Positions 2,064 through 35,000 of a stretch of DNA of 45,255 bases are shown here, in pieces. Numbering within the stretch: the first letter of the stretch is position 1; every line of letters begins with the position of its first letter. The position numbers were made by a program, and so were the translations under genes. Source of the DNA: a virus; the IMG/VR virus record IMGVR_UViG_3300025127_007531, positions 1-45,255 of that record, one strand, 5' to 3'. Below the pieces are notes generated by a model that was not told the DNA's origin, ran no database searches, and saw only the letters and a list, made by a program, of their open reading frames with translations.

Positions 2064-5000
2064 TTAAGCTAATAATTTAAACGTTTTTCTCATACTAAAC
2101 GTTGAGAAACCCCACTGCTGATTGTAGTTTAGTTTTGCCATATATGGACGATTGAGTTGAACAATGTCCTTATCAGGATCGATACCCCAGCACCTGATAA
2201 CGGTGGTTTCGTTGTTGTCGTCAATAACCTTAACGACATAAAAATTCTTCCCATTCTTAGATTTCTTAAGCTTGCACTCGCGAGGTATAAACCAGGTTAC
2301 ACCCAACTCTGGGTCAAACTCTGAAATGGGTGGAACGTAAAGTTCATCTAGTTTTTGCCTCACCCGGGGTGTTACCACCGCGTTGATAGGGAACACACCA
2401 GTAAGATTTACTAAATATTCTAATTTCTCTTCCTCTGAGAAGTCTCCCTCTGGTGCATATAGTTCGATGTTCTCTATGAGATTTTTTTCTTTTCTTGGTC
2501 GCTTTTCAGAAATGGCGGTCCAAAAGTGTCGCAAGCCTGTGAACCGTTCGTCCATTAAAGCGTTCATTGCTTGAGATAGAGTCAGTGCATGTATCGACTT
2601 TTTATTCAATTTAGAATAAACAATGTCCGGATGAAACAAGAACTCCTCAATAGTATTGAATGGGCGATGCTCAATAATCTGCTCGATAGCTTTAATCCCA
2701 AGTCCCTTTATGGAAGACAGGGGCTGAATAAGGGTCTTCCCATCTTCACTGATCTCCCAATTGACCCCCGACGTATTGACGTTCAGTGGCTCAACATTAT
2801 AGCCCAAAGATTTGGCTGTTGCGATAGCCCTCTCTTTTCTAGTTTCTGGTTCCTTGTCTAGAAAAGCTGCCAACCACTCCGCAGGATAATAATTAAGAAG
2901 ATAAGCACACTGATAAGACAACACACAATAGGAAACAGCGTGAGACTTATTGAAACCATATCCAGAAAAATATTCAAAAGTTTCCCAAAGTTCTCTTGCT
3001 TCATATTCTTTCATTCCCTTTTCTATGCAGCCGCGCTTGAACTTGTCGAAGATCTTGTCTTTCTGCGCTTGGACTTCTCCAGTGCCCTTTTTAGTGAGAA
3101 GTTTTCTTAACTTATTGCCTTCATCTAGGGACAAGTCCTTACCTAACTTGTGGGCTAGCATTGCTATCTGTTCCTGAAAAATAAGGAACCCGTATGTTTC
3201 TTCTGTTACTTCGCGAACATACCTATTGGCATATTCTACGTCTTCTGGGTTTGACTTTGCTCCAATATATTTTCTATCAACTCCCGCGCCGAGTGGGCCC
3301 GGGCGATAGATCGAAGTAATAGCCGATAGGTCAATGATGTTATCCGGTTTGGCATTCTTACAAAATGATTGTGCTCCGGTTTCTGTAAACTGGAAGATAC
3401 CTGCCCACTTTCCCTTGTGGAATATGTTTTGCCAAACAGCCTTATCCTTTAGGTTTATCACCTCTGGATGTAAATTTTTATCGTAGTATTCTTTGATGTC
3501 TGCGAATGTTGGGTTGGCCACTCCGTGGTGACGGCGAAGAATACGTTCAATGGCACCTTCAAGCATCCGCAATGAAGCAAGACCCAAGATATCAAACTTG
3601 ATAAAGCCCATGGGCTCAAGATGACGCACGTTCTGGCCCTCGGACCATGGTGTTTGTCTAACTCCTCCTGAGTTGATTAGAGGCATCCACTGATCCAGGT
3701 TTTCACCTACAACAACACCACCTGCGTGACGAGAGGCAGAACGCGTCTGACCATACAGCTTCTCGATGTGAGTCTTGATACGCGGATACTTTACCAAGAA
3801 CTTCTGCAACGACTCTGAGAACTCCATCAGTTCTTCAAAAGTTGGAGCGTACACGCCTGCTGTAATTCCATGTTTCTTCTTTGCAAGCGGCGTGGCTTCG
3901 TAAACCATCTTGCTGGTCACATTGTTTACTTCAGTAAATTCAATACCATAAAATTTTGAGATGTCCTTGATCAGAGATCGGAGTTGTAGTGTGTTCCAGT
4001 TTGTAATTGGCACAACAGAATCATCACCCCACTCACCAATAAGCTCTTCCTTTAGGACCATAGGGTCTGACACATCATAGTCAATATCTGGATATCCTGA
4101 CCCGCCCTTAGTTAAGAATCTCTCAAACTGAAGACCATATTTAATAGGATCAACTTGTGTAATATTTAAAACATACGCAACAAGTGAACCAGCAGCAGAG
4201 CCTCGACCTGCGCCAACAAGCTGACGAGTGACCGCGACATCCGCAATAGCCTTCATTGTTAGAAAATATTTCGAGAACCCTCGATCTTCGATAACATTGA
4301 CCTCGTGTTTAAGCCTATCAACATAATCCTGTTTGTTGGCCAACCCGAGCGACCGTAGGCCTTCCACACAAAGGGCAGCCAAGGTCTGACCTGCAGTTGA
4401 CCCCTCCGGGACCACAAAGTCGGGCAAGCGAACTGTGTTGTCCGGAAGGAACGTTTCGATCCTCTCATGTGCAATTTGATACGTCCTCTTAATCGATTCG
4501 AGTACCAGTTTGTCATCGTATTCTGCTCCGCATTCTTTCGAGTACTTCTTGTACGATTCAAACATTTGATCTCCATTCTTTGGGTACAGTTCGTATCCAA
4601 CTTCCTCAACGGAAAGGGGAAGCTCGTCAGATAAATAATCTGGCTTGCCTTTGCCCAGCCATCCTAGGCGCTTATACAGTTCCCTATCCTTCCAAACATC
4701 GGCATTATAGTAGTGTGAGTCGGCCGTTGATATTAGTTCAATACCAAATTCATGATGCATCTGAATAATATATTGGTTTAGCTCGTGCTGCTCTGGTACG
4801 TTATTCCACTGTAACTCACCATACCAACGGTCTCCAAAAATTGCTTGCATATTCTGTGTTGTCTCTCTCATCGCGTGAAGAATAGCATCAGGGCCCGTGT
4901 CTCGGTTTTCCCAATAGTTGCCAGCATACACGCCGCCCAAGCAAGCCGAAGCAGCGATAACGCCTTCGTTGTGCTTTTGCAACATATCATAATCAACTCT

Positions 5001-5498
5001 GGGGTATCGATAAAAATTATCTCCTGAGTATGATTGCGAGATCATCTTGAAGATATTCTGGAGGCCAGTCTGGCTTGTGGCCAACAAAATGAGGTGTCTC
5101 CGGCGGTTCAAAATTGACTTAATCTTCTTCTTCGAAGCTCCCTCATCCTCTACCGTAGTTCCGGAATTATCAGCCTCATATTCTGACTTTTTCTTGGAAG
5201 CCGCCTTGATGTCTTCATATTCTTTCTTCCACTTTTTGACAGATGGGATAAAATATGCCTCACATCCGAAGATAGGCTTAAATTCTTTGCCAGCTTTTTG
5301 CATCTTCTTTGCGTGCAACACCTGCCAAGCCAGGCCGTTCATGTTGCCATGATCGGTCAGCGCCAGGGCATCCATTCCGTTCTCATATGCAAAGTCCATA
5401 TGATCTGGTGGATAACCAAGAGCATCGAATGGCGAGCCGGCGACAGAGTGGGCGTGGAGCCCAACAAATGGTATTGAACTTTCATTTCTAGAGTTCAT
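2064..5498 (-). CDS. dnaE: DNA polymerase III alpha subunit (family C, DnaE-type)
   Basis: At about 1144 residues this matches cellular DnaE. The N-terminal PHP domain keeps the metal-ligand pattern (HAHS near residue 16, TDHGN near 49, ADSHYY near 260), so PHP-type proofreading is possible. The palm carries PDIDYD (about residue 470), equivalent to the catalytic PDxDxD pair, and KFDILGL, equivalent to the third catalytic Asp. Helix-hairpin-helix segments and a C-terminal OB-like domain follow. It is the likely replicase. The ATG at 5498 is preceded by AAAGG 8 bases away; a TTG at 5501 is the alternative start. The start overlaps the preceding small gene. T4 itself uses a family-B polymerase, so this is a replacement relative to T4. 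No tau, beta clamp or epsilon gene is visible in the window. Confidence 0.95.
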   Translation of the reverse strand: MNSRNESSIPFVGLHAHSVAGSPFDALGYPPDHMDFAYENGMDALALTDHGNMNGLAWQVLHAKKMQKAGKEFKPIFGCEAYFIPSVKKWKKEYEDIKAASKKKSEYEADNSGTTVEDEGASKKKIKSILNRRRHLILLATSQTGLQNIFKMISQSYSGDNFYRYPRVDYDMLQKHNEGVIAASACLGGVYAGNYWENRDTGPDAILHAMRETTQNMQAIFGDRWYGELQWNNVPEQHELNQYIIQMHHEFGIELISTADSHYYNADVWKDRELYKRLGWLGKGKPDYLSDELPLSVEEVGYELYPKNGDQMFESYKKYSKECGAEYDDKLVLESIKRTYQIAHERIETFLPDNTVRLPDFVVPEGSTAGQTLAALCVEGLRSLGLANKQDYVDRLKHEVNVIEDRGFSKYFLTMKAIADVAVTRQLVGAGRGSAAGSLVAYVLNITQVDPIKYGLQFERFLTKGGSGYPDIDYDVSDPMVLKEELIGEWGDDSVVPITNWNTLQLRSLIKDISKFYGIEFTEVNNVTSKMVYEATPLAKKKHGITAGVYAPTFEELMEFSESLQKFLVKYPRIKTHIEKLYGQTRSASRHAGGVVVGENLDQWMPLINSGGVRQTPWSEGQNVRHLEPMGFIKFDILGLASLRMLEGAIERILRRHHGVANPTFADIKEYYDKNLHPEVINLKDKAVWQNIFHKGKWAGIFQFTETGAQSFCKNAKPDNIIDLSAITSIYRPGPLGAGVDRKYIGAKSNPEDVEYANRYVREVTEETYGFLIFQEQIAMLAHKLGKDLSLDEGNKLRKLLTKKGTGEVQAQKDKIFDKFKRGCIEKGMKEYEARELWETFEYFSGYGFNKSHAVSYCVLSYQCAYLLNYYPAEWLAAFLDKEPETRKERAIATAKSLGYNVEPLNVNTSGVNWEISEDGKTLIQPLSSIKGLGIKAIEQIIEHRPFNTIEEFLFHPDIVYSKLNKKSIHALTLSQAMNALMDERFTGLRHFWTAISEKRPRKEKNLIENIELYAPEGDFSEEEKLEYLVNLTGVFPINAVVTPRVRQKLDELYVPPISEFDPELGVTWFIPRECKLKKSKNGKNFYVVKVIDDNNETTVIRCWGIDPDKDIVQLNRPYMAKLNYNQQWGFSTFSMRKTFKLLA

Positions 5499-5691
5499 CA
5501 ATTAAGCCTTTCATTTCATCTACAGTTTCTAGCAGCGTTTCCTTTACTGCCTGTCTTTCATTTTCGAACAGTTCCATTATAAATTGTTCTTGGTCATTTG
5601 TCAAGAAAATATAAGCGTCTGGAAAGCCTACTATCTCTTTTATTTGGAATGGTATCTCATTGTAAATCATTTCTAGATGTTTTGTGTTCAT
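5488..5691 (-). CDS. Small acidic protein of unknown function
   Basis: This 67-residue acidic, probably all-helical protein sits between the nucleotidyltransferase-like gene and DnaE. Its ATG overlaps the upstream stop (TAATG), and its own stop lies inside the start of DnaE, an 11-base overlap. Such exact coupling supports a real gene. No cysteine motif, signal peptide or membrane segment is visible. Its position suggests a product made together with the polymerase, but no sequence feature indicates what it does. Confidence 0.65.
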   Translation of the reverse strand: MNTKHLEMIYNEIPFQIKEIVGFPDAYIFLTNDQEQFIMELFENERQAVKETLLETVDEMKGLIDEL

Positions 5692-6545
5692 TATTCATTG
5701 TCCTTTCTTTTGAAAATATATGGTTTCATAAACCATTTTCCTGGCTTTTTAATATCTAAATTAGAAGAGTAATATTCTCGAAGTGTACCCCAAGATTCAA
5801 GTTCATAATATTGCTCTATTTCAACCTTATTGTCAATTTGTACTGACTCAAGGTTGAAGATTTTTTTCAAACAAAAATCTTTACCAGACCACCTTTCTGA
5901 TGGTGGAATGCTTCTATCACCGCCCGTGCACTGCTTTTTTATGTTCCACTTAAATTTTGGCCAATCTTCAGGAAAAAATGTGAATCCTAAATATTTATTG
6001 CTTCGAACTGTTGAGCCTTTATGTGAAAAGTAAAACGACTCGGGTCCGCGAATAATAGATCTATGCTCCCTAGATAATAGGGGATCATAAATTCCATAAG
6101 GAAAGGATACGAAATACTTGCTTGGGCGAGTCCACTGACTCATACTGTCTGATATTAAAAACGCAGTCAGCGCTCCGTGGAGAGCAGACCAGCCCAATGA
6201 GTCGCGACGCCGGCGGTCTTTTTGCGCGATGGGCGTGTAATATATAGGCACCCATTTTTCGTGATAATCCTTTCTCTTTACAAATGCTTTTTCCTCAAAA
6301 AATCTAGGAGACATAACATAATCCCCTATTCGCTTCCTGACTATTGGCGACACATCATCGTTGCAAACGATCCAAATACTATCGCAACCAGCAACGGCAC
6401 ATTCATGAACTGACCTCTCTAAGGCCAAAAAATCTTCGCCAAGCGGCTGAAGATAATCTGGCCAGGGCAGATTAAGCGAATCTTTTCTACCAGAAAGGGG
6501 GATAATTCCTGCTAGGTTCCTACCTTTAGGTGGTGAATCTGTCAA
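5691..6545 (-). CDS. Nucleotidyltransferase-like (GT-A fold) protein
   Basis: The N-terminus (LAGIIPLSGR, then FLALERSVHECAVAGCD and IWIVCNDD) has the layout of sugar-phosphate nucleotidyltransferases: a first beta strand with a glycine/arginine nucleotide loop, a helix with ALERSV, then a strand ending in DD. The catalytic signature is not a classical GGxGxR, so substrate and activity are unassigned. The gene is about 284 residues long. No ATG lies near the conserved start. GGAG sits 7 bases before a TTG at 6545 and 4 bases before another TTG at 6548, so a TTG start is likely. The 5' end overlaps the preceding unknown gene by about 20 bases, suggesting the two proteins work together, perhaps on a nucleotide or surface sugar (inference). 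Confidence 0.6.
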   Translation of the reverse strand: MTDSPPKGRNLAGIIPLSGRKDSLNLPWPDYLQPLGEDFLALERSVHECAVAGCDSIWIVCNDDVSPIVRKRIGDYVMSPRFFEEKAFVKRKDYHEKWVPIYYTPIAQKDRRRRDSLGWSALHGALTAFLISDSMSQWTRPSKYFVSFPYGIYDPLLSREHRSIIRGPESFYFSHKGSTVRSNKYLGFTFFPEDWPKFKWNIKKQCTGGDRSIPPSERWSGKDFCLKKIFNLESVQIDNKVEIEQYYELESWGTLREYYSSNLDIKKPGKWFMKPYIFKRKDNE

Positions 6546-7302
6546 CAATATTCTCCAGACCTGTTGATAGGAACTTTACCTTTTCTGAGTCCTCATATTG
6601 AGTCCTCTCTTTTTTGACCACTATTCTTTTTCTATGGACCACCTTGGGTTTCCTATATTTTAACTTTCCGCTTTTATATCTTTTCATAATATTACCATGA
6701 ACACCAATGGATGTCAAGTGTCTCATAACAGAGAATCTAGTCATAGAATCCGAATATTCTACGTTTTGTAATTGCTCCCCTGAAAGGGTCGATTTTGCCA
6801 CACAGTCTGTTATATAGTCTGCTCCATCGACCCGATTTGATGTGTAGTAATGTATCTGACCAGCTAGCGGTAAACTACTAGTGTGCGGTTGCAGATATTT
6901 GTGTTTTCCGCCCAGGCTTGATAATTCAAAATCATCATAGACGTGATACTCTGGTGGCACCTGTTTAACTATTTTATTTTCTATTTGCAAACCTGTTGTA
7001 TCAAAAACTTCACAAACTCCAAAGCCGTAGCTAAACACTCCTAATTCAGACGCTACTTTTAGAGTACCCTCGCTGACCCTTACAGTTTTTAGGTTTTCGT
7101 AATTGAGCAGCCGACCAGACAGAGATAATATGATTTGCAATCTAGACCAAACAAAGTCCTTCCTGACTGTCTCTAGCTTTTCGTAAAAAATGGGTAGAGA
7201 CGAAGCTTGAGTCGATGGTAAATAATATGAATCAGAAGCTACTGCATATAAAGCTGATTCAACACAACTACCTATTACTAGCCTCTCCAGTTCTAATAGC
7301 AC
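6526..7302 (-). CDS. Unknown protein paired with the nucleotidyltransferase-like gene
   Basis: This 258-residue protein is not recognised. It is mixed alpha/beta in appearance with no signal peptide, and ends in a very basic stretch (Lys/Arg-rich, about residues 205-230) before an acidic C-terminus. A cluster with conserved character reads DDFELSSLGGKHKYL, and a second reads VMRHLTSIGVHG. The start codon is GTG at 7302, inside the last codons of the lipoprotein gene, with only a weak AGG upstream. The end overlaps the following nucleotidyltransferase-like gene by about 20 bases. The basic tail could bind nucleic acid, but nothing in the sequence proves it. Confidence 0.65.
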   Translation of the reverse strand: MLLELERLVIGSCVESALYAVASDSYYLPSTQASSLPIFYEKLETVRKDFVWSRLQIILSLSGRLLNYENLKTVRVSEGTLKVASELGVFSYGFGVCEVFDTTGLQIENKIVKQVPPEYHVYDDFELSSLGGKHKYLQPHTSSLPLAGQIHYYTSNRVDGADYITDCVAKSTLSGEQLQNVEYSDSMTRFSVMRHLTSIGVHGNIMKRYKSGKLKYRKPKVVHRKRIVVKKERTQYEDSEKVKFLSTGLENIVDRFTT

Positions 7303-9347
7303 AAGCCTATCTCGTGATCATATCTTGCCATATTAGACATAAACGAAGCGACCTCATAACCAAATAATGAAATGAATCTTGCTTGGCGATCTTGCTCGCG
7401 TGGAAGGCATGCTTCATCTATGATCGAAATGAGATCATTGTACATCTGATTGGCGTCTGATGTTAGTCTGAACCGCTGGCCGCGGCCAGCCAGTATTATA
7501 TCTTCCCAGCTATCCCCATCGCCGCCTTCATCAACAAAGCCATACAGTTTGAGACTGGCACTACTTCTTAGAGCATCCTCTAGTATTTGATCTGTGACGC
7601 CGGGAGATAAAAATGTCTGAGGTTCTTCATCTGTAAATATAATGACGATCCGATCGGCGCCCGGGCGCCAGCTAATTGAAAAATTTTCTTTCTCTGGAGA
7701 AGACCCAGTATTACTAATCCATTGCGCTGCAGGTATGTCATATTGGATACCTGGGGCGAGATTTCTAACCGCAAGAAGGAGCGCGTCTTTCAACATCTCA
7801 CTTCCTGTATCCATACCCTCAGCGCCGAGGGCAGCAAACTGGTTTAAAAAATCCTCAAAAGGAGATATGTCACTCACCTTCACTAAGAACTCTGGAGTAT
7901 TATAGCCTTCCTCAAATTCTTTTGGTCCTATGATGAGCCCCCAGTGTAATGCATCTTCCGCAGAAAACTGCTGAGCAAATTGATTCAGTGCGATCCGCAC
8001 TGCATTGATCTCGTCATCCATTGACCCTGACCAGTCTACAACAAAAAGAATATCTGTGTCTCTGATTTCTTCTCCAAAATCTACTTCTCCATCGCAGTCG
8101 TTGTCTGCTCCGTCGCAGATTTCTTGACTTGGTGTGACCTCCCCTGAGCAAAAACCAGGGGCGAACACTCCTTGTCTATCCGACCCCCATGAGCCCAGAT
8201 TGCAATATACTTGCCCAGGGCTGCACACACCCACTCCCAAAGTTTCAGGGTCTGCTGTATAGCATGCTTGGGTTAATTGCTCGTCTAGCTGGCCATCACA
8301 GTCTTCGTCAAAAGCGTTGCATTCTTCTCTTGCCAAGCGCATGCCGATAAAAGGGTCACACTCTTCTTGAGCGTCAGGGAAATAATGACAAAAAGCCAAA
8401 CAATCGGTCATTCTAAGTTCTGTGCAATTCTCATCTACGCAGTCGCACATCTTAAATCCCTGCCCACAACGTAGCGGGTTTTCTGTGCATGGTTGCAAAT
8501 TTCCAACGTCATCTACGTCGCAAAGACAGTTTAAAGCCTCGTCAACTTGACTATCGCAGTCATTATCGACACCGTCGCAAAACTCATCTACTGGCTGTGT
8601 TGCTGTGCAGGAAATCCAGTTTCCTGCCTCACATCTTTCAAGTCCCGCTTCGCACAAAGTCTCACAGGGCCTAATCAACTCCTCATCAACGGTGCCATCA
8701 CAGTCGTCATCAATATCGTTGCATGATTCTTCTGGTACGGGGCCGCAAGCGTCACATATATTTCTCTGCTCTTCGTCTACTAAGCCGTCGCAATCATCGT
8801 CACTATAATTGCAGCGTTCTTCGGAGGGAACACATGTAATACATTCTCCGTATTCGATGCTTCCTTTTGAACACAATATTCTTTGTGTTCCCTCAACACC
8901 TTCTATTTCGCACCTAACTGTGATTGTGATATCATTGTTTAGGTTCGGCGGACACTCTAAAATAGAACGGCATTCTCCTTGAGATATTATCTCTGGTGGG
9001 GGACAGTTAAAGTTCGCAGATCTGTCACAAGGAGTGTGGCTGTCGTCGCAAATATTCACTACAACATCTAGCGCATTAACGCCCAAACCAGAAGGCGGAC
9101 AATACCACTGCTGCACCTGACAACACTGAGGTTGGCACTCACAAAAGACTTCTTCTGAACTCGTCGCTGTCAGACACGGATCTACGTAAGCATCTGGAAA
9201 AATAAAATCAATGTATGTAACATCAGGGTGGGTGTCTACCTGAGCATCCTCTGAAAGCACTCTTGTTTGTAGCATATCACGTTGCGTACTTACTGTTGAG
9301 TCAGTACATGCTACAAACAACAAACATAGTAACAATCTCTTTTTCAT
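7293..9347 (-). CDS. Surface lipoprotein with MopE-type DxDxDG repeats and a von Willebrand factor A domain
   Basis: This 684-residue protein starts with a basic/hydrophobic signal ending in FVAC (Cys14), a plausible lipobox, so it is probably lipidated and exported. Residues 60-430 are very cysteine-rich and hold five calcium-loop-like repeats of the type C-x(3-4)-D-x-D-C-D-G-x-x-D-E (near residues 180, 210, 257, 343 and 411). This is the MopE-like putative metal-binding motif abundant in Myxococcota-type surface proteins. A VWA domain follows (about 431-650) with the MIDAS residues DWSGS (438-442), a downstream TGSE and TDEE. Its ATG overlaps the ThyX stop (ATGA). It looks host-derived, and its position inside a replication and nucleotide operon is odd. 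Possible roles are superinfection exclusion, cell adhesion or a virion surface protein (inference). Confidence 0.85.
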   Translation of the reverse strand: MKKRLLLCLLFVACTDSTVSTQRDMLQTRVLSEDAQVDTHPDVTYIDFIFPDAYVDPCLTATSSEEVFCECQPQCCQVQQWYCPPSGLGVNALDVVVNICDDSHTPCDRSANFNCPPPEIISQGECRSILECPPNLNNDITITVRCEIEGVEGTQRILCSKGSIEYGECITCVPSEERCNYSDDDCDGLVDEEQRNICDACGPVPEESCNDIDDDCDGTVDEELIRPCETLCEAGLERCEAGNWISCTATQPVDEFCDGVDNDCDSQVDEALNCLCDVDDVGNLQPCTENPLRCGQGFKMCDCVDENCTELRMTDCLAFCHYFPDAQEECDPFIGMRLAREECNAFDEDCDGQLDEQLTQACYTADPETLGVGVCSPGQVYCNLGSWGSDRQGVFAPGFCSGEVTPSQEICDGADNDCDGEVDFGEEIRDTDILFVVDWSGSMDDEINAVRIALNQFAQQFSAEDALHWGLIIGPKEFEEGYNTPEFLVKVSDISPFEDFLNQFAALGAEGMDTGSEMLKDALLLAVRNLAPGIQYDIPAAQWISNTGSSPEKENFSISWRPGADRIVIIFTDEEPQTFLSPGVTDQILEDALRSSASLKLYGFVDEGGDGDSWEDIILAGRGQRFRLTSDANQMYNDLISIIDEACLPREQDRQARFISLFGYEVASFMSNMARYDHEIGLCY

Positions 9348-10051
9348 GAAGGCCTCGCTTCAAGACCGCTTTCATATGCCTCAACAGAGTGAGGAAAGAA
9401 CTTTTTTGTAATTTTCAAACATGCTGCAGCAACCTGCTGAATTTCCCACTGGGCTCCCTCGTGGCTTCTTAATGAGATGAACTTTAGCAGGTTGTGTAAA
9501 TTAACTGTTCCATAATATTGAGTGTAAAGATTCTGAGGCAATACTCCTCGCGCTTGCTCTCTACAAACGCCAGATTCTAAAAGAGCATTATATAAACTAA
9601 CACTTCTTTGGTTGTGGGATTTAACAGCGGTGGCGGCGGTTTCAAAGCCAATTTGCAAATATGAAGAGTCCAGTACTGGGTTTATCAGTTTACTCTTACT
9701 TGCTTGTCTGTTATTTTCATGTTGTGTCCTAAATTCAGAAGGACTATAGAAATTCATGTCTACGGAAGTGTATCTTCTGCTTATCTCATTATAAGCCCAA
9801 GTTCTGTGTCTGTGGTGCTGGCTCCTAATAAATAAAGGAACGGTGAATCTCAATGTAACAGAACAATGCTCAAAAGGTGATGAGTGCTTATGTTTCATCA
9901 GGTAATTTATTAGTTTAATGTCTCTTTCTTCTATTGAAGACCTTGTCGACCCAAAGGAGACTCTTGCTGCGTTAACTACAGTCAGATCACTTCCAAGGTG
10001 GTCGACATACTCAACAGAGCCTATCCCATCCCCATAAAGATCAATCTTCAT
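9344..10051 (-). CDS. thyX: Flavin-dependent thymidylate synthase ThyX
   Basis: Converts dUMP to dTMP using FAD, NADPH and methylene-tetrahydrofolate. The 235-residue length fits the family. The ThyX signature RHRTWAYNEISRRY spans residues 81-94; the usual consensus is RHRxxSxNxxSxRY, so Ser is replaced by Ala at one position. The C-terminal region with SHEGAQWEIQ also matches the family's second conserved block. The start ATG at 10051 has AGGAGA upstream and overlaps the GroES-like gene by 11 bases. The gene sits downstream of the sigma70-like promoter near 10690 and works with dUTPase and RNR to make dTTP. Confidence 0.95.
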   Translation of the reverse strand: MKIDLYGDGIGSVEYVDHLGSDLTVVNAARVSFGSTRSSIEERDIKLINYLMKHKHSSPFEHCSVTLRFTVPLFIRSQHHRHRTWAYNEISRRYTSVDMNFYSPSEFRTQHENNRQASKSKLINPVLDSSYLQIGFETAATAVKSHNQRSVSLYNALLESGVCREQARGVLPQNLYTQYYGTVNLHNLLKFISLRSHEGAQWEIQQVAAACLKITKKFFPHSVEAYESGLEARPS

Positions 10052-13980: not shown

Positions 13981-14936
13981 GAAAAGGAAGTAATAATATT
14001 GTTAAATCTTTGTTCCAGATCAGTTGTAGATACTGTAAGCACTCCATCTTGGAGCATAAGCTTTCTTATTTCCGTTTGATTATAGTGGGGCTTATATTGC
14101 TCAAACGTATCGTCAATCCCTTGTTTGGCTTGAATAGATAGCATGGGCGAAGATAACTGCATAATATCATAATTGTTTTCTATTAACTCCTCATTGTCTA
14201 AAATATTTGTATACACTTTTTGCTTGTTTTCAGATTTTTCACATTCAGTGATAACATCAGATAAATAGTATGCTTTCTCCTCTTTTAGAAAAGAAAATCG
14301 CTTTGAAACAGTTTCCAGGCCAACACGAGGGACACCTGGAAGGTTATCCGAAGAATCTCCTACAATAGCTCTAGCCAACGCAAAGTTGAGAGGATGAATA
14401 CCAAATTTTTCCACTATACTGTTTTTGTTTAGATATTCTTTTTGTATAGGCCTATGTAAGATGGTCTTATCATCAAGAAGTTGAATAAAATCTTTGTCCG
14501 CGGATACAATTACTTTTTGCCATTCTGAAAACATTGAACTACTCTTCACATAAGAGATTACATCATCTGCCTCTACTAGAGGCTCCATAAACTGAATTAC
14601 TGGAGTTTGGTTAAAATATTCAATCACTCTCATTTGTTGCCAAACTTTGTTGTCAACAATATCAGCCTCATCCATACCCACTTGTGACCAGTTTGTCCTA
14701 GGGGGCCTTCTGCCACCTTTATAGGACTTATTCATGGAACGGCGCTTTTTGCTTCCACCTTTACCATCCCAAACTAAAACCATAAGATCAGGCTTTATCT
14801 CTCTTGTAAGCTTGTTCAAGATGTTGATAAACGTCCTCATTCCACCGATAGGAGAGCCGTTTGGGTTCTTGCTAGGGTCTACTATATATCCGCGGATAAA
14901 CTGGTTATACGCGTCTACTATCATCATTCTTTTCAT
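13977..14936 (-). CDS. 5'-3' exonuclease / flap endonuclease (T4 RNase H-like)
   Basis: Removes RNA primers and 5' flaps during lagging-strand maturation. The 319-residue protein has the FEN/Pol I 5'-nuclease order: an N-terminal MIVDAYN (metal Asp), VWDGKG with an Arg/Lys-rich helical arch (residues 55-80), EADDVISY and SADKDFIQLL acidic clusters, then GDSSDNLPGVPRVG, the helix-3-turn-helix segment. The ATG at 14936 overlaps the HNH gene stop (ATGA). Its ribosome site AGAGGA lies inside the last codons of the HNH gene. With the separate polymerase at 18927-20069 this reconstitutes the two active parts of Pol I as split genes. Confidence 0.93.
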   Translation of the reverse strand: MKRMMIVDAYNQFIRGYIVDPSKNPNGSPIGGMRTFINILNKLTREIKPDLMVLVWDGKGGSKKRRSMNKSYKGGRRPPRTNWSQVGMDEADIVDNKVWQQMRVIEYFNQTPVIQFMEPLVEADDVISYVKSSSMFSEWQKVIVSADKDFIQLLDDKTILHRPIQKEYLNKNSIVEKFGIHPLNFALARAIVGDSSDNLPGVPRVGLETVSKRFSFLKEEKAYYLSDVITECEKSENKQKVYTNILDNEELIENNYDIMQLSSPMLSIQAKQGIDDTFEQYKPHYNQTEIRKLMLQDGVLTVSTTDLEQRFNNIITSFS

Positions 14937-15454
14937 TGTTTGTCCTCTGGAAAATTTAGGTGAGCAAACTCTCCATACATCTGTTTTGCTTTTTTGTCAT
15001 ATGCTTTAGCAGCCTCTTCTGGACTATCATAGGTACCCAATCCAATATTTCTTTTTTTTGTTGCTGGGGTTTCGGGGTCTGCGATATACGCTCTCCAACG
15101 GTTACCAGCTTTGGCGACACCTTTGTAGCCGGATTGACTATCCGATCTAGTTTTTTTATTACAACTATTTTGCGAATATGTACAAACTCGCAAATTTTCC
15201 TTTCTGTTATCCAGTGCGTTGCCATTTATGTGATCGACTACCATTCCTTTGGGTGGATCCATTACCACTCTGTGTACAGAGATGCGGCGGTCGCCACTTA
15301 CAGCATAATACGATGTGGCGCCTGGTGGCCTGTGTGCATACCATTTTGCGCGTTGACTGATTGACTTTATCACTTTAATATAATCCTCATCATCGACAAT
15401 GCACACTTTGTCTGATTTTGTGCCTCTGTTTTCCCATAGTTGAATTGTTTTCAT
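14933..15454 (-). CDS. HNH homing endonuclease with AP2 DNA-binding domain
   Basis: This 173-residue protein has an HNH core (VHRVV, VVDHINGNALDNRKENLRVCT; His-Asn-Asn/His type, about residues 70-105). A C-terminal AP2 domain follows (YKGVAKAGNRW, then GTYDSPEEAAKAYD, about 120-172), the usual layout of free-standing phage homing endonucleases. I chose the ATG at 15454 because GGAGAAATTA lies just upstream; an upstream in-frame ATG at 15493 would overlap the terminator stem. The gene sits between UvsX and the flap nuclease and its last bases form the flap-nuclease start, so it looks inserted with its own ribosome site. The terminator just upstream may keep it weakly expressed. Confidence 0.9.
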   Translation of the reverse strand: MKTIQLWENRGTKSDKVCIVDDEDYIKVIKSISQRAKWYAHRPPGATSYYAVSGDRRISVHRVVMDPPKGMVVDHINGNALDNRKENLRVCTYSQNSCNKKTRSDSQSGYKGVAKAGNRWRAYIADPETPATKKRNIGLGTYDSPEEAAKAYDKKAKQMYGEFAHLNFPEDKQ

Positions 15455-15467
15455 TAATTTCTCCAGT

Positions 15468-15491
15468 AAAAAGCCCGGCAAAGAGCCGGGC
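15468..15491 (-). terminator. Factor-independent terminator after uvsX
   Basis: On the minus strand GCCCGGC pairs with GCCGGGC across a five-base loop (TCTTT) and is followed by TTTTT. It lies 12 bases after the UvsX stop, before the HNH gene. It should end much of the SSB-UvsX transcript, so genes below depend on read-through or other promoters. Confidence 0.85.
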
Positions 15492-15502
15492 AATCATAGT
15501 GA

Positions 15503-18088: not shown

Positions 18089-18930
18089 TCTTGAACCTTT
18101 GGTGTATAATATTCTGTATATACATAATCATTCTCGTATTGGGTTGGGAATATGCCAAAACTAGCTTTGACATTTTCTGTTATTTTACTTTTTACCTTAT
18201 TTGCTATTTGTCTGAATAGGTTTTCTTCTGTTCTTAATTTTTCTTCGTTTATACAGTAATAATACACTATCTCTACTGTATTTTCAAGGGGAAAAAACAA
18301 TTTATCACCTTCTTCTTCCTGTAGGGAACCTAGACCTATTGTTGCAATCCTACAAGATTCTTTCTGACCTTTGAAAGTGGAGGCGATTGGATTTGAATTT
18401 TTAAAAACATCTATCATGTAATAGCTACTTGTAAAAACGTTGTTGATTTGACTGTAATATTCGTATACATTTGTTGGACCCGCCATGCTCTCAAGACTTA
18501 AGTTTGAAACTAGCGTCATATTCTGAAAAAGGCCTGAGCGTGCGAACTGCTGCAATATACCTCTGCATGACCTTTCGTGCAAAAATTTGTTTTCTGATAA
18601 AACCTCAACTTCCGGCAAAAAGTAGACTATATTAATTTTTACCCCGGCTTGGTGTAATTTTTCAAGAAATCTCAAAGCTATCGCTGATGAATCATTTGCA
18701 CCCGTTAAAAATACTGTACAATTATTTTTAATCTTTGATGCCCAACGATGAAGCTTAGACATATCCATGTTTTCATAATCTTCTGGAGATTCAAGAAGTG
18801 GTAAAGAAAATCTGTACTTTGTTGTTTTCTTTTCTTTGTTATTTATATAATATGCACTGTATTGGGGATATTCTGATAGCTGCTTTACGACATTTGTGCC
18901 GCAGGCGCCAATACCTAATATGTTTTTCAA
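18085..18930 (-). CDS. Divergent FtsZ/tubulin-like protein
   Basis: A 281-residue protein whose first half follows FtsZ/tubulin order. GIGACGTN (residues 6-13) matches the T1 loop GxGGxGxN. A strand ends YYINN, like AVNTD. Then comes VFLTGANDSSAIALRFLEKLHQAG with the next strand IVYFLPE, where FtsZ has VFVTAGMGGGTGTGAAP and VVTxPF. A helix and the strand MTLVSNLSLE correspond to LIVIPNDRL. The tubulin signature GGGTGT/SG is not kept (GANDSSA at 77-83), so GTP binding may be altered or lost. The start is TTG at 18930 with AAAGGAGA upstream, overlapping the polymerase stop as TTGA. The alternative is another Rossmann-type protein. Confidence 0.6.
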   Translation of the reverse strand: MKNILGIGACGTNVVKQLSEYPQYSAYYINNKEKKTTKYRFSLPLLESPEDYENMDMSKLHRWASKIKNNCTVFLTGANDSSAIALRFLEKLHQAGVKINIVYFLPEVEVLSENKFLHERSCRGILQQFARSGLFQNMTLVSNLSLESMAGPTNVYEYYSQINNVFTSSYYMIDVFKNSNPIASTFKGQKESCRIATIGLGSLQEEEGDKLFFPLENTVEIVYYYCINEEKLRTEENLFRQIANKVKSKITENVKASFGIFPTQYENDYVYTEYYTPKVQE

Positions 18931-20069
18931 ATTTTTATCTCCTTTAAGTTTCCAAAATCTTTGCCAATTTTACAAGTGCTAGAAAATATGCCAAGCCTTG
19001 TTTTCTCGAAAAAAGACTTAATTTCTTTTAACTCTTTAGCTTCTTCTCTAGGCATGTCAAGGACTATAGAGTCATGAAGAGTAAAGGCTATTTTTGTTTT
19101 TTTGCCTTCTAATATTTTCTGTATTTTGTAAGCGTTTTCAATAACCAGATCTGAAGTCGTAGACTGCAAAAGATAATTTTGAGCTTTTCTCTCTGGCACC
19201 AACAGTCTGCGGCCGAACGGGGTTGTTAAAATGCTTGTATTTTCATCGAAAAAGTTCTTAAAAGTGTCGCGGGAAAAGTAAGAATCAAAGTTTCGGTTAA
19301 CTGAACTCGGATTGTATAACCAGGCAAAAAGTTTTTCCTTAAAACTTGAACGTGACATGGCGGTAGAAGGGAAAATCTCATTTTGAAGGTGTTGATGTAT
19401 ATCTCCCTTTGGCAGGTCGTGGCCACCGAGGGCCATCAATGTTCTGACCTCTGCTGCGTTCATATCTATTTCAACAAATGCTCCGTTTGTCGGCTTTAAA
19501 AGCGACCGGTCTTCTTTCTTCATTGTCAGAATTGGGACAGAATCTTTTTTTGTTGTCAACCGGCCGGTTGCTGACCCAAAAATATTATATTTGATGTGCC
19601 GGGTTTGTCCTGCAAAACTTACTTTTTGCTTAGATATATTTTCTGTTAAAACATGGCCTTTATGAAGAATATCATAACAATCAGGCTTTCGAAAACCATT
19701 ACATAAATTGTGTAATGCCTCGTGCCTAACTGAGAGCCAGTTCATTAATTGATGTTTTGGTAGCGCATCAAAAAAACAAAAATCTTCTATCTCGATTTTT
19801 GCTTGTGACATTGCTTTTCTTTGAGCCTGCAAAGTGTTGTGTGATTTTTTGAAAAAATCTGTATTACTGCTATAGTCAGACAGAGATCTGTCTCCTAATG
19901 CAACAAAAAGATATGTATAGTTCTCGTCATCTTTAAACAAGGGAGTATGCTTCCATGCAAAAGCCTTGCCGCCGGTCGATGGTAAAGATTGAGGCTCTAG
20001 TTTTAGGCTGTTTCCATCATATATTCCTTGGCAAAAGTTTTCTATATCAAGGGCTTGTAATATTAACAT
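18927..20069 (-). CDS. Family-A DNA polymerase, short form without intact exonuclease domains
   Basis: About 380 residues with the Pol I polymerase signatures: SATGRLTT (167-174, like TATGRLSS), motif A EIDMNAAEVRTL with Asp202 and Glu207, the O-helix R240-x3-K244-x3-F248-x3-Y252, TPFGRRL (283-289) and motif C LHDS (331-334, catalytic Asp333; usually HDE). The N-terminal 150 residues begin LQALDIENF, like a decayed 3'-5' exonuclease start, but are too short for a full domain. It may fill gaps with the separate flap nuclease while DnaE replicates. I prefer the ATG at 20069; one at 20093 is possible. The start overlaps the preceding gene by 23 bases. Confidence 0.9.
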   Translation of the reverse strand: MLILQALDIENFCQGIYDGNSLKLEPQSLPSTGGKAFAWKHTPLFKDDENYTYLFVALGDRSLSDYSSNTDFFKKSHNTLQAQRKAMSQAKIEIEDFCFFDALPKHQLMNWLSVRHEALHNLCNGFRKPDCYDILHKGHVLTENISKQKVSFAGQTRHIKYNIFGSATGRLTTKKDSVPILTMKKEDRSLLKPTNGAFVEIDMNAAEVRTLMALGGHDLPKGDIHQHLQNEIFPSTAMSRSSFKEKLFAWLYNPSSVNRNFDSYFSRDTFKNFFDENTSILTTPFGRRLLVPERKAQNYLLQSTTSDLVIENAYKIQKILEGKKTKIAFTLHDSIVLDMPREEAKELKEIKSFFEKTRLGIFSSTCKIGKDFGNLKEIKI

Positions 20070-21417
20070 AGTTTGTTCCAGATATTGACACATTTGTGTC
20101 AGTTCTGTTTCTTTCGTTTTCGTTGTAAGATATCTGTGCTTTTATTATAATGTCTTTTAAAAACCTACAACACCTAGATTCAATAAATCCTAAAGCGCCG
20201 CATGGGCCATTGAGGCCAAATAAGTTTCCCTCTCCAGGATTTGTAAAATCAAATGTTACTTCCCTATTATACCTTGTTACAGCCCCATTTGTCAAGTCTC
20301 TTACCAGCTTTTGCGCTCTTGTTAGATTATTTGGATCTTGCGGCAGGTTATAATCTTGAGAATTGTACATGCCTATCTCCCTAAGCCTACATAAAACATA
20401 AAATTCAATCCATTGAGATTCTGGTACCATTCTAAGTATATTGTTGAGGTCTAACCTTCTGGATTCTTCTTCTGTTTCGGGATCTAAATTTTGATTTCTC
20501 ACCTCTTCTGCATAATCTAGATATATTCTTTGCAAAAACTCTTTAATTTGCCAATAATCTCCCAGGCCAACTTTTATTAATTTTTGATCAGAATAAAAAT
20601 CATGAAATTGCAGTAATGTTCTGTCTGTCTGTTCTATGTTTAATATGTTTTCTTTTACTTTTCTAGAATCCAAATTTAAAATTAACCTCCATGGGCAATT
20701 GCTGTCTACAAAAAATCCATATTCCCATGCCTTCTCAATATAGCACTTAAAATCTTTGTTTTCTAGAAATTCTTGTTTTTTTTCATCAATCTGTACGTCT
20801 AATGTTTGTGCTAGGTCTATATACAGCCCTGTGTGATGAACAGACGACCGATTAGATATTAAAAATCCAGATTTAGTCATAGTGTGTATGCCCGAGAAGG
20901 TTGAAAAATCTTCTGAAAACATAAAATTTTTAACTTCTTCCAAAAAGTCACTGAAATTCAATAAGTCTGGAGTAACTGGAGGGTTTCTTTCCAGCACGTA
21001 TGATAAGACCTCGCCCCCTACAAATGTCTCATAATCTTCAAAATCATTATCTAGATCCTCAAAGCATCTGGACGGGATCATTAAAGAAATATCTTGCGGA
21101 AGTGTTAGTCCTGTTTTATCCATCAAATCTAAATAATAGTCTCTAAATTCATTGAACATTTCTACAACAAAGTTTATGCCTTGAACTGCTGCAGCATAAT
21201 CTCCAAACATAATTACATGCTCGTCTTCAAGAGACGCGTTTGGTTGAACTGTGTGGTAATTTTCATCGAGAAATCCATACAGTCGTCTCGAACGCACAGT
21301 ATCCAAAAGAGGGTAATCACCAGAGTACTCTGATACTAGGTCCTGATACCTTGAACGCTCTGTGTATTCCTGTGAAATGTTTCCTGTCTGGCCACCGCGA
21401 AGAGGAGTATTTGTCAT
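20047..21417 (-). CDS. Unknown protein at the end of the tail operon
   Basis: This 456-residue acidic protein is not recognised. It has many aromatic and acidic residues (a DLDNDFEDYE stretch near residue 125), two adjacent cysteines in ESRCC near the C-terminus, and no signal peptide or membrane helix. The start is set by ATGA overlap with the hub-like gene (ATG at 21417). A longer frame upstream reads a low-complexity Arg/Cys-rich stretch that is the antisense-like shadow of the neighbour's Ala-rich tail, so I reject it. Co-translation with tail genes suggests a virion or tail-assembly role (inference). It also overlaps the polymerase gene, joining the structural and replication blocks without a gap. 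Confidence 0.75.
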   Translation of the reverse strand: MTNTPLRGGQTGNISQEYTERSRYQDLVSEYSGDYPLLDTVRSRRLYGFLDENYHTVQPNASLEDEHVIMFGDYAAAVQGINFVVEMFNEFRDYYLDLMDKTGLTLPQDISLMIPSRCFEDLDNDFEDYETFVGGEVLSYVLERNPPVTPDLLNFSDFLEEVKNFMFSEDFSTFSGIHTMTKSGFLISNRSSVHHTGLYIDLAQTLDVQIDEKKQEFLENKDFKCYIEKAWEYGFFVDSNCPWRLILNLDSRKVKENILNIEQTDRTLLQFHDFYSDQKLIKVGLGDYWQIKEFLQRIYLDYAEEVRNQNLDPETEEESRRLDLNNILRMVPESQWIEFYVLCRLREIGMYNSQDYNLPQDPNNLTRAQKLVRDLTNGAVTRYNREVTFDFTNPGEGNLFGLNGPCGALGFIESRCCRFLKDIIIKAQISYNENERNRTDTNVSISGTNYVNITSP

Positions 21418-32030: not shown

Positions 32031-35000
32031 TTATTTTTTGACGTAGTGTATTACAATCGCGTCGTCTTCTTCTGGCTCGATTCCAAAAACAACCATCTGG
32101 TTTGTTCCGGAGCCGTCTTCTAGTTTATAGTCCCAAGTGCTAGCACCTAGACCAGAAGCCGCATACTTAGTCTGAAGCATACCATTCAAGTAAACCTGAA
32201 GAGAGTCCACAACAGGCTCTTCTGCCAAAGAAGCACTCACGTAGGCGCCATGAGTGTTCTGTAGCGCAAGGGAACCTGAGAAGGTTGAGACAACTGGGTC
32301 GACGGTGATAAGACCGTCATTTCCAATTTGAAGACCATCGCCCTTCAGTGACTGCAGAAAAGCGTTCAAACTCTGAACCTTTAATTGATCATCGGTTGCA
32401 TCTTTGAAGACAATGAAATCATCGATACCGTCGCCGGTGACGTCGATATCCGCGGTGGCGCTGGCGAAGTCACTAGCATCTACAGCATCAAGGTGAGCAA
32501 CACCATTAATGTAAAGATCGTTGAATTGCCGTCCAGATGCACCGAGGTTAACAGCAGCATAATTGTCCAAAGGAAAAATATCACCTTGTACTGTTAATGA
32601 TGATGCAAAGGTTGCAGCGCCGGAGCCAGATACTGTTCCAGCAGACAAAGCGGTTATCGTGATTCCGTCAATTGTGCCGCCTTCAACCTTATCGCCAGAG
32701 ATCGCGTCATCATCAAGAGTCAAAGTCTGACCAGTCATGTCAACGTCGGAAGTGGCAACTGTTACACCATCGATGTTACCGCTGTCGATGTTGATATCTG
32801 TGATTATCTGACTATTAGCATCAAGTGCCTGACCAAGCTGATCAATGTGAGCTTCAACAACGTGTGCTTGAGCGTAACGCTTGGCTGCAGCACCGAGGTC
32901 AGAGGCATTATCACTTGAAGGAAGGAAGTCTCCAGCCGAGGTCACGTTTCCGCCAAACTGAGCCGTGGACGAACCAGAGACCGTTGCTCCTTGCAGTGCG
33001 GTGATGGTGATTGCGTCAATCGTACCACCCTCAACCTTGTCACCAGAGATCTGGTCGGCTGCAAGGGTTAGGGTACCAGCGGAAACATCAAGTTCTTTGG
33101 TTGCCCCTACGGTGATATCAGAGGTTGCAATTGTTACACCATCGATAGTACCGCTGTCGATGTTGGCGTTTGAGATTATCACGCTATTAGCATCAAGTGC
33201 TTGACCCAACTGATCAATGTGAGCTTCGGCAATGTGTGCTTCAGAATAGCGCTTCGTGCCGCTACCTAGGGCCATTTCGTCGTCAGCGTCTGGTATAATT
33301 CCAGCGTCGTGCAATGATACGAAAACAGAACTATCAAGTGATAGGTCAAATCCGCCTGCGCCACTGTTGAGACTGTCACTATAGGCAATCGAAGCGACAT
33401 CGTCACTGGCGGCAGAGCCACCAAACTGTATGGCTGCACCGTCGGCGCCTGCATCGTTTGCTCCAGCAGCAGCAATGATTACCTTGTCTGCAATCTCTAA
33501 AGTCTCCTCAGTTTGCACAACAGAGTTGAGAGTAACAACGTCCAAGTTGGTGATTCTTGCGTGAGATGCAGTTAATTGTGGCAATGCTGAGATTGTGGAT
33601 CCAGCAAAGCTATAAGTTCCAGCGTCGAACGTTCCTGCTCCAACTTTGTCTGCACCGACCTGACCTGCGTCAAGCGTAAGGGTCTGGCCTGAAACATCAA
33701 CGTCAGAAGTAGCAATTGTTACACCATCGATAGTACCGCCGTCAATGTCAGCAGTGAGAGCGACCAAAGCATCAATGTTGGCAGTGCCGTCAAGGTGAAG
33801 GTTCCTGAACTGCTTGCTAGATGAACCCAAGTCAGACACATCATCGCTTGAAGGAAGAATATTGCCATTTACTGTTAGTGGGCCTTCGAACTGGGCTGCA
33901 CCAGAGCCAGAAACGTCACCCAAAGTTAGGTCTGTTATTGTGATTTCAGCAATTGTACCACCCTCAACCTTGTCACCAGAGATCTGGTCATTGTCAAGTG
34001 TGAGTGTTTGACCAGAGACATCAACGTCAGTTCCTGAAATGTCACCGCTGTCGATGTTGACACTGGTCATAGCCTGGCTAGCAAAGTTAATTGCACCAGC
34101 GGCCTCAAAAGCTCCGAGCTTGGTCGCTGTAAGAGTATCGCTTTGTGGATTCCATTTAACCCCATCAACGTCTGTTGCTAATTTTCCAGAGCCGGTTGAG
34201 TGAGTAAAAACAAGTTGATAGTCTTCACTGTTTCCATCTACTGCCTCAACGTCTACGCTTGAGAAGAAATTCTGCAATGCGTCAACGGTTACAGCCTTTG
34301 CTGCCTGTCCACTGCGCTGAATTAACATCTCATCCCCGGTTAACACATCGCCCGAAAGATTTGCAGAACCTGAAAGGTCCACAGCTTTCGCCAATGCTTT
34401 GTTTACTGATTTAAACTTTTCTAACTGTCTATTATTTAGTTTTGTAATTGCCATGTTAGATCCTCCTACGGCTTGGTATTGACTAAAACTGGTTGTACTG
34501 ATCGTAACTGTTCCTCCGGAACAACTCCAAAATTCTTGAGGCAATTCATACCATGGGCCTGAAGCTGCTGCTCTCTTGTAAATTTTGAGATTTGCAGGAC
34601 ATGATCCTGCTGCTGTTCCCGTTAAATCAAACTGAATGGTTACTGCCTGATCAAAGTTCTGACCATGAGGTGTCGCAGTGATTACTGGTGAATACTGAGA
34701 CATATCAGGATTTCCGGCTGCAGCCATTATTCCCTGATGTGCAGCATCTGCATCAGCAGTCTTGTTCAAACCTATTGTTTGGTCTGAAGATAACGCCGAT
34801 GCGGGCACCGTAAGGCTAGCCCCTGAAATAGATACACTTCCTCCTGATGAACCTATTGATTCTGATGCTTCGTCAGTAGAAGAAGATTCATCCTGAAACT
34901 TTGGTGTTGCTGTTGAGCCATCTCCAACTGAAAAATTTGCTTTATTAAGCCGTGGATCAAAAAGTCCGTTGCTTAAACCAGAAATAGAAAGCCAATCATC

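Follow-up and report, generated by a model that had tools for sequence, protein, structure and literature searches.

A predicted lipoprotein with MopE repeats and a VWA domain, encoded in the replication operon of marine phages and exchanged among them as allele types: a candidate for superinfection exclusion

What use has a phage, within an operon for nucleotide synthesis and DNA replication, for a large protein with a lipoprotein signal, MopE-type repeats and a VWA domain? The question is raised by virus record IMGVR_UViG_3300025127_007531, the 45,255 bases of which were analysed as a whole (hereafter the window) and represent a contractile-tailed phage with a T4-like major capsid protein, tail sheath, tail tube and baseplate hub. 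Our preferred answer, to which we assign a probability of roughly 40%, is that the protein is anchored in the envelope and binds a host partner in a metal-dependent manner, most likely in the service of superinfection exclusion.

The replication genes of the window comprise a DnaE-type DNA polymerase, a DnaB helicase, a UvsX-like recombinase and SSB, supplemented by genes for a phage ribonucleotide reductase (RNR), ThyX, a GroES-like protein and dUTPase. Among phage records, the capsid protein has relatives in, e.g., Flavobacterium phage immuto and Rhodothermus phage RM378, a kinship that corresponds to the far-T4 neighbourhood (PMC4360716); no phage record contained a DnaE more than 60% identical to that of the window. 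The MopE/VWA gene is embedded in the nucleotide/replication operon (ThyX, GroES, RNR, DnaE), in agreement with its earlier placement among nucleotide genes, and apart from the tail genes clustered at 27-38 kb. Besides the DnaE-type polymerase (2064-5501, minus strand), the window encodes a 388-aa protein (18927-20093, minus strand) that resembles the C-terminal portion of a different family of phage DNA polymerases (phrog_17). A 1577-aa protein is encoded between the tail sheath and capsid genes (32031-36764, minus strand), with a sub-threshold match to ZU5 as its sole match, and an HNH endonuclease gene (14933-15493, minus strand), missing from the close relative L002, is likely a mobile insertion.

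The open reading frame spans exactly the positions given in the original prediction, which had named no strand, and lies on the minus strand. Its features, and the evidence for each, are the following:

7293..9347, minus strand: gene for the 684-aa MopE-repeat/VWA lipoprotein (ORF, Pfam, syntenic relatives)
9344..9347, minus strand: 4-nt overlap (ATGA) with thyX (9344-10051)
9306..9347, minus strand: signal peptide and lipobox, residues 1-14 (MKKRLLLCLLFVAC), with Cys14 as predicted lipidation site (sequence, homologue alignments)
9192..9305, minus strand: predicted flexible acidic tether, residues 15-52 (AlphaFold2 pLDDT < 50)
8823..9191, minus strand: cysteine-rich beta domain of no known family, residues 53-175 (strands at 76-170 in the model)
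8775..8813, minus strand: MopE motif 1, residues 179-191 (CNYSDDDCDGLVD; PF11617)
8685..8723, minus strand: MopE motif 2, residues 209-221 (CNDIDDDCDGTVD; PF11617)
8541..8579, minus strand: MopE motif 3, residues 257-269 (CDGVDNDCDSQVD; PF11617)
8283..8321, minus strand: MopE motif 4, residues 343-355 (CNAFDEDCDGQLD; PF11617)
8079..8117, minus strand: MopE motif 5, residues 411-423 (CDGADNDCDGEVD; PF11617)
7407..8060, minus strand: VWA domain, residues 430-647 (PF00092; AlphaFold2 pLDDT about 80-94; Foldseek)
8022..8036, minus strand: MIDAS loop 1, D438-W-S-G-S442 (invariant in alignments A2 and A3)
7785..7799, minus strand: putative MIDAS loop 2, E517...D521, with Glu replacing the usual Thr as judged from motif spacing (E517 and D521 invariant)
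7629..7631, minus strand: MIDAS loop 3, D573 within FTDEEPQ (invariant in alignments A2 and A3)
7293..7406, minus strand: C-terminal tail, residues 648-684, with a conserved Cys683 near the end (alignment; low pLDDT)
7293..7302, minus strand: start of g1, the gene downstream (6526-7302), overlapped by 10 nt

The lipobox reads LLFVAC, and its Cys14, which had been singled out from the letters of the window, is invariant in both an 8-member and a 23-member alignment. The protein is very acidic (135 D+E versus 38 K+R), and conserved cysteines of the beta domain include residues 58, 69, 71, 75, 76, 83 and 100. Five motifs of the form C-x(3)-D-x-D-C-D start at residues 179, 209, 257, 343 and 411, and the Pfam family Cu-binding_MopE (PF11617) matches in five stretches with an E-value of 4e-12 (46.6 bits; gathering cut-off, 27); the predicted five DxDxDG loops with paired cysteines are thus present as MopE motifs, except that the third reads DNDCDS. 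The VWA family (PF00092) is matched with an E-value of 1e-4, at 23.1 bits against a cut-off of 23.8 and therefore 0.7 bits below threshold by sequence.

Translational coupling to ThyX had also been proposed. The ATGA overlap is present in the window, but close spacing is not general: the distance from the end of the ThyX gene to the start is at most about 50 nt in 21 of 37 related loci, and 400-880 nt in the remainder. The overlap of the stop with g1, in contrast, is exactly 10 nt in most of these 37 loci and is a conserved overlap.

The VWA assignment was confirmed at the level of the fold. In an AlphaFold2 model built on 23 related sequences, the VWA domain was predicted with confidence (pLDDT about 80-94) and the rest less well (mean pLDDT 73.7, pTM 0.42), and Foldseek returned 204 PDB matches at E <= 0.001. 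Integrin beta headpieces made up most of the best ones (E about 1e-7 to 1e-6), with further VWA entries also among the top matches listed, and the only sequence-profile matches in the PDB (hmmsearch) were to integrin beta-8 (E 0.002-0.02), for which no single stretch passes alone. The loop-2 ligand of a MIDAS is usually Thr, and Glu in integrin beta subunits. In the family studied here, D438-x-S440-x-S442 and D573 are invariant and no loop-2 Thr is conserved, its region containing the invariant E517 and D521 instead; from the motif spacing, Glu517 may take the part of the integrin-beta Glu at the predicted metal site. The description of the MIDAS as complete therefore holds for the DxSxS motif and D573; with no conserved Thr in loop 2, it is correct as a whole only on the condition that Glu serves as the fifth ligand, which is the arrangement of integrin beta subunits. 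Both the fold search and the sequence profile point to an integrin-beta-like VWA domain, which has in common with the beta I-like domain the DxSxS, putative Glu and Asp pattern of the metal site and a 'WR..A.R...V..D' stretch, and differs from it in its phage origin. A direct comparison with integrin beta-3 by hhalign, using an approximate beta-3 sequence, was weak (45 columns, 4.9% probability, first loop only), and we therefore claim no homology beyond the general VWA superfamily. Other phage proteins in BFVD share the VWA fold (A0A516KYY5; crAss-like cr106_1; Streptomyces phage Jay2Jay), with 28% identity to A0A516KYY5 (E 4.5e-19) and mainly fold-level similarity for the other phage VWA matches.

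Such a protein had been considered untypical of phages, and this view was not borne out. A single-sequence search of IMG/VR yielded 7 relatives, profile A1 yielded at least 448 loci with a relative, some of which may match by virtue of nothing but the MopE repeats, and a profile of just the VWA domain yielded 223; no match was found among the 50,697 records of INPHARED with three family members as queries. Every one of the 74 distinct full-length members has a DxSGSM-type motif plus between five and eight MopE motifs, and 66 of them have a lipobox by simple sequence rules applied strictly, most of the other eight being similar by eye; Asp occupies the +2 position in only 2 of the 66. The same architecture in the same slot recurs in dozens of independent contigs, which rules out both chance and a bacterial gene joined to the window by a contig chimera, the latter having been considered unlikely from the outset. 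Around DnaE, 80 loci were compared and only those covering the slot were counted: with a DnaE at least 74% identical, every such locus has the gene between ThyX/GroES and g1; with a DnaE at most 68% identical, the gene is found in no locus, though the flanking genes are present. The MopE/VWA gene is therefore a core gene in the window's far-T4-like, DnaE-carrying clade. It also occurs in other phage backgrounds (L187, L191, L209, L212, L234, L254-L261, L004, L006, L007), and dN/dS ratios of 0.03-0.12, where synonymous divergence is unsaturated, indicate purifying selection.

On one phage contig, two different VWA-MopE gene types lie in tandem (L191; G268:C1:125952-130578). Several sister phages that lack the VWA gene encode in its slot a small protein with a conventional signal peptide, in many cases ...PVFA and then ...YKIKIDRDEN (L125:6850-7173, L129:6626-6958, L123:1317-1637, L136:3073-3441, L135:4686-4937, L132:683-1372).

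The identities of the protein do not track the phage backbone. Across 38 non-redundant loci, the pairwise identities of DnaB, DnaE, g1 and g2 agree with one another (Spearman 0.76-0.93); for the same loci, VWA identities correlate with those of DnaB, RNR, GroES, g1, g2 and DnaE at 0.20-0.31 and with those of the neighbouring ThyX at 0.55, and in 13 long contigs their correlation with the median of 57 core families is 0.02. Among these 13 contigs the VWA identities fall into two or more well-populated types, with about 75% or more within and about 48% between types. Type A, for example, unites four divergent phages (G260-G263) with VWA identities of 75-84% against a median core identity of 0.42-0.48; no protein other than VWA is conspicuous in each of the four contigs, and almost nothing else reaches that identity. 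Individual pairs illustrate both directions: L185 and L241 are 97% identical in DnaE but 49% in VWA, and L203 and L238 are 83% identical in VWA but 21% in g1. In the VWA tree, phages of the DnaE clade are interleaved with unrelated ones; well-supported branches force at least six label changes, and parsimony counts 9, compared with 19.3 in shuffles. Judged by these comparisons, the MopE/VWA protein is a swappable allele, independent of the phage backbone. Individual contigs can be chimeric, yet the allele pattern spans many contigs from different samples and holds. Locus L218, with upstream genes like those of L215, and VWA and downstream genes like those of L239, appears to be a recombinant or a chimeric contig with a break near the ThyX-VWA junction. 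No co-variation of VWA type with tail genes was found in the type A contigs; for type B the comparison is uninformative, since the backbone, too, is largely common to three of the four contigs.

Cellular homologues match almost only over the MopE repeats and derive mostly from Myxococcota and 'Deltaproteobacteria' MAGs, in which PF11617 proteins with the same Cys-paired DxDxDG repeats are numerous (25-49% identity over the repeat region); in keeping with the original prediction, the nearest homologues are not phage tail proteins. Some bacterial proteins (L026, L031) also join MopE-like motifs to a VWA-like motif, but none with an N-terminal Cys domain, MopE repeats and the phage-type VWA domain was found within the range searched by profiles, i.e. 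the Myxococcota phylum (a name inferred from the GenBank titles of the member genomes) and a few other MopE-rich genomes. In 237 Myxococcota-phylum genomes, eight weak matches to the VWA profile were obtained, only one of which combines MopE repeats with a phage-type VWA domain; the VWA profile in 18 genomes and the full profile in 20 MopE-rich genomes gave only MopE-region or weak partial VWA matches. The sole full-architecture match (L179, L180) lies on a contig of 34,863 bp with many small, mostly co-directional ORFs (G225:C1), which is probably large-phage DNA binned into a Myxococcota-phylum genome.

A tmRNA gene is frequent in related phages: seven long contigs from the clade to which the window belongs have one, with tags of the form AN[DN]D[VI]E..., e.g. 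ANDDVENFEDYALAA (L277:721-1028, L310:9680-9989, L382:16487-16797, L325:19437-19738, L343:7498-7785, L347:508-815, L327:9641-9927), two of them confirmed by Rfam RF00023. Tags of the form AND/ANN-x-[VIM]E were found in 13 of about 35 Myxococcota-phylum tmRNAs and in 0 of 20 from a phylum taken as control (Bacteroidota by title); G007 was rejected as a second phylum for this comparison, as it belongs to the same phylum as G001. When tmRNA DNA similarity was used as a host clue, only the universal 3' end matched, and the best match of the phage RNR in Myxococcota genomes, at 43% identity, gave no host support. The MopE repeats, the tmRNA tags and the MAG-binned phage contig weakly suggest Myxococcota-like hosts. 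The expectation that the gene points to the host thus stands to the extent of these hints, but the cellular homologues are nearly all MopE-only and the sole full-architecture match is phage-like.

A role at the surface of the infected cell, as first proposed, appears to be the best reading. The lipoprotein would be exported early in infection, alongside ThyX, RNR and the replication proteins, cleaved and lipidated at Cys14 and retained in the host envelope, where the flexible tether and a disulphide- and Ca-stabilised stack of MopE repeats would carry the integrin-beta-like VWA domain; surface exposure beyond the outer membrane was predicted by none of the tools used. The metal site of this domain may bind an acidic group of a host envelope partner, and a surface structure blocked or masked in this way would keep competing phages out of the infected cell. 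Since different versions are swapped among related phages, the protein probably binds something on the host, and the discrete allele types, each common to unrelated phages, might represent different host partners or exclusion groups. A precedent is Llp of phage T5, an early-expressed lipoprotein that blocks FhuA (PMC9586334) and acts in the manner proposed here. Llp, and likewise Cor of T1-like phages, resemble the predicted protein as phage lipoproteins in the host envelope. They are small and contain neither VWA domain nor repeats, whereas the MopE/VWA protein has about 700 aa. The Llp gene adjoins a receptor-binding gene, unlike the MopE/VWA gene with its place in the replication/nucleotide operon.

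The invariant lipobox cysteine, the presence of DxSGSM and MopE motifs in all 74 members, the integrin-beta-like fold matches, the fixed slot, the low dN/dS and the allele exchange would all fit an exclusion protein or binder, as does the finding of another signal-peptide protein in the slot of some sister phages. The type A VWA, on the other hand, is without the tail-gene partner that receptor-matched exclusion might have shown, and the size of the protein, the operon position and a family without cultured member would likewise count against exclusion. Because allele type follows neither the backbone nor, among the type A contigs, the tail genes, a partner determined by the host or by rival phages is favoured; for the same reason a role in adhesion or aggregation stays a serious rival, though we consider it doubtful. 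Infected cells would then be made to stick, or not to stick, to other cells or particles, with altered contact, predation and spread of progeny, and allele types would match host lineages. An integrin-like VWA domain on a repeat stalk is an adhesin-like architecture, allele types common to unrelated phages are expected for host-specific partners, and the weak hints at Myxococcota hosts agree; a position in the replication operon is by itself no advantage for such a function. A more far-reaching version appears rather improbable to us, namely that these proteins form a phage-specific family of integrin-like adhesins of the envelope, passed as allele types between unrelated ocean phages whose Myxococcota-like hosts are social or predatory, and that they rewire the contact of the infected cell with other cells or surfaces (kin recognition, aggregation, prey contact) rather than simply block a receptor.

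The protein could also bind, inhibit or replace a periplasmic or surface protein of the host (protease, secretion or repair factor) and so keep the envelope intact, and not be aimed at other phages. The strong purifying selection agrees with this, and the other secreted proteins in the slot of some sister phages imply that envelope control may be the general function of the slot; such a role alone does not account for the discrete alleles and for their exchange, and we regard it as unlikely. Capture of a host protein for the acquisition of copper or calcium is suggested by the Pfam name 'Cu-binding_MopE' and the acidity of the protein, but is very unlikely. The copper site of MopE* in Methylococcus consists of two histidines and a kynurenine formed from Trp (PMC3423442); the protein of the window (P0001) contains five His, none is invariant in 23 homologues, and the DxDxDG-type loops suggest Ca over Cu. 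VWA and repeat domains occur on structural proteins generally, which would allow for a receptor-binding or adhesion protein of the virion or tail. This assignment was rejected as exceedingly improbable in view of the lipobox in nearly all members and the position in the replication operon, far from the tail cluster; the protein also had no match to a PHROG tail family.

The gene is common in large marine phages and apparently undescribed; a limited, partial literature search on phage VWA/MopE lipoproteins returned no relevant paper. The fixed slot, the near-universal lipobox and the backbone-independent alleles make it a testable candidate for the alteration of the host envelope, and for competition, by lytic ocean phages, and the allele type may serve as a marker of shared hosts among phages that lack named hosts.
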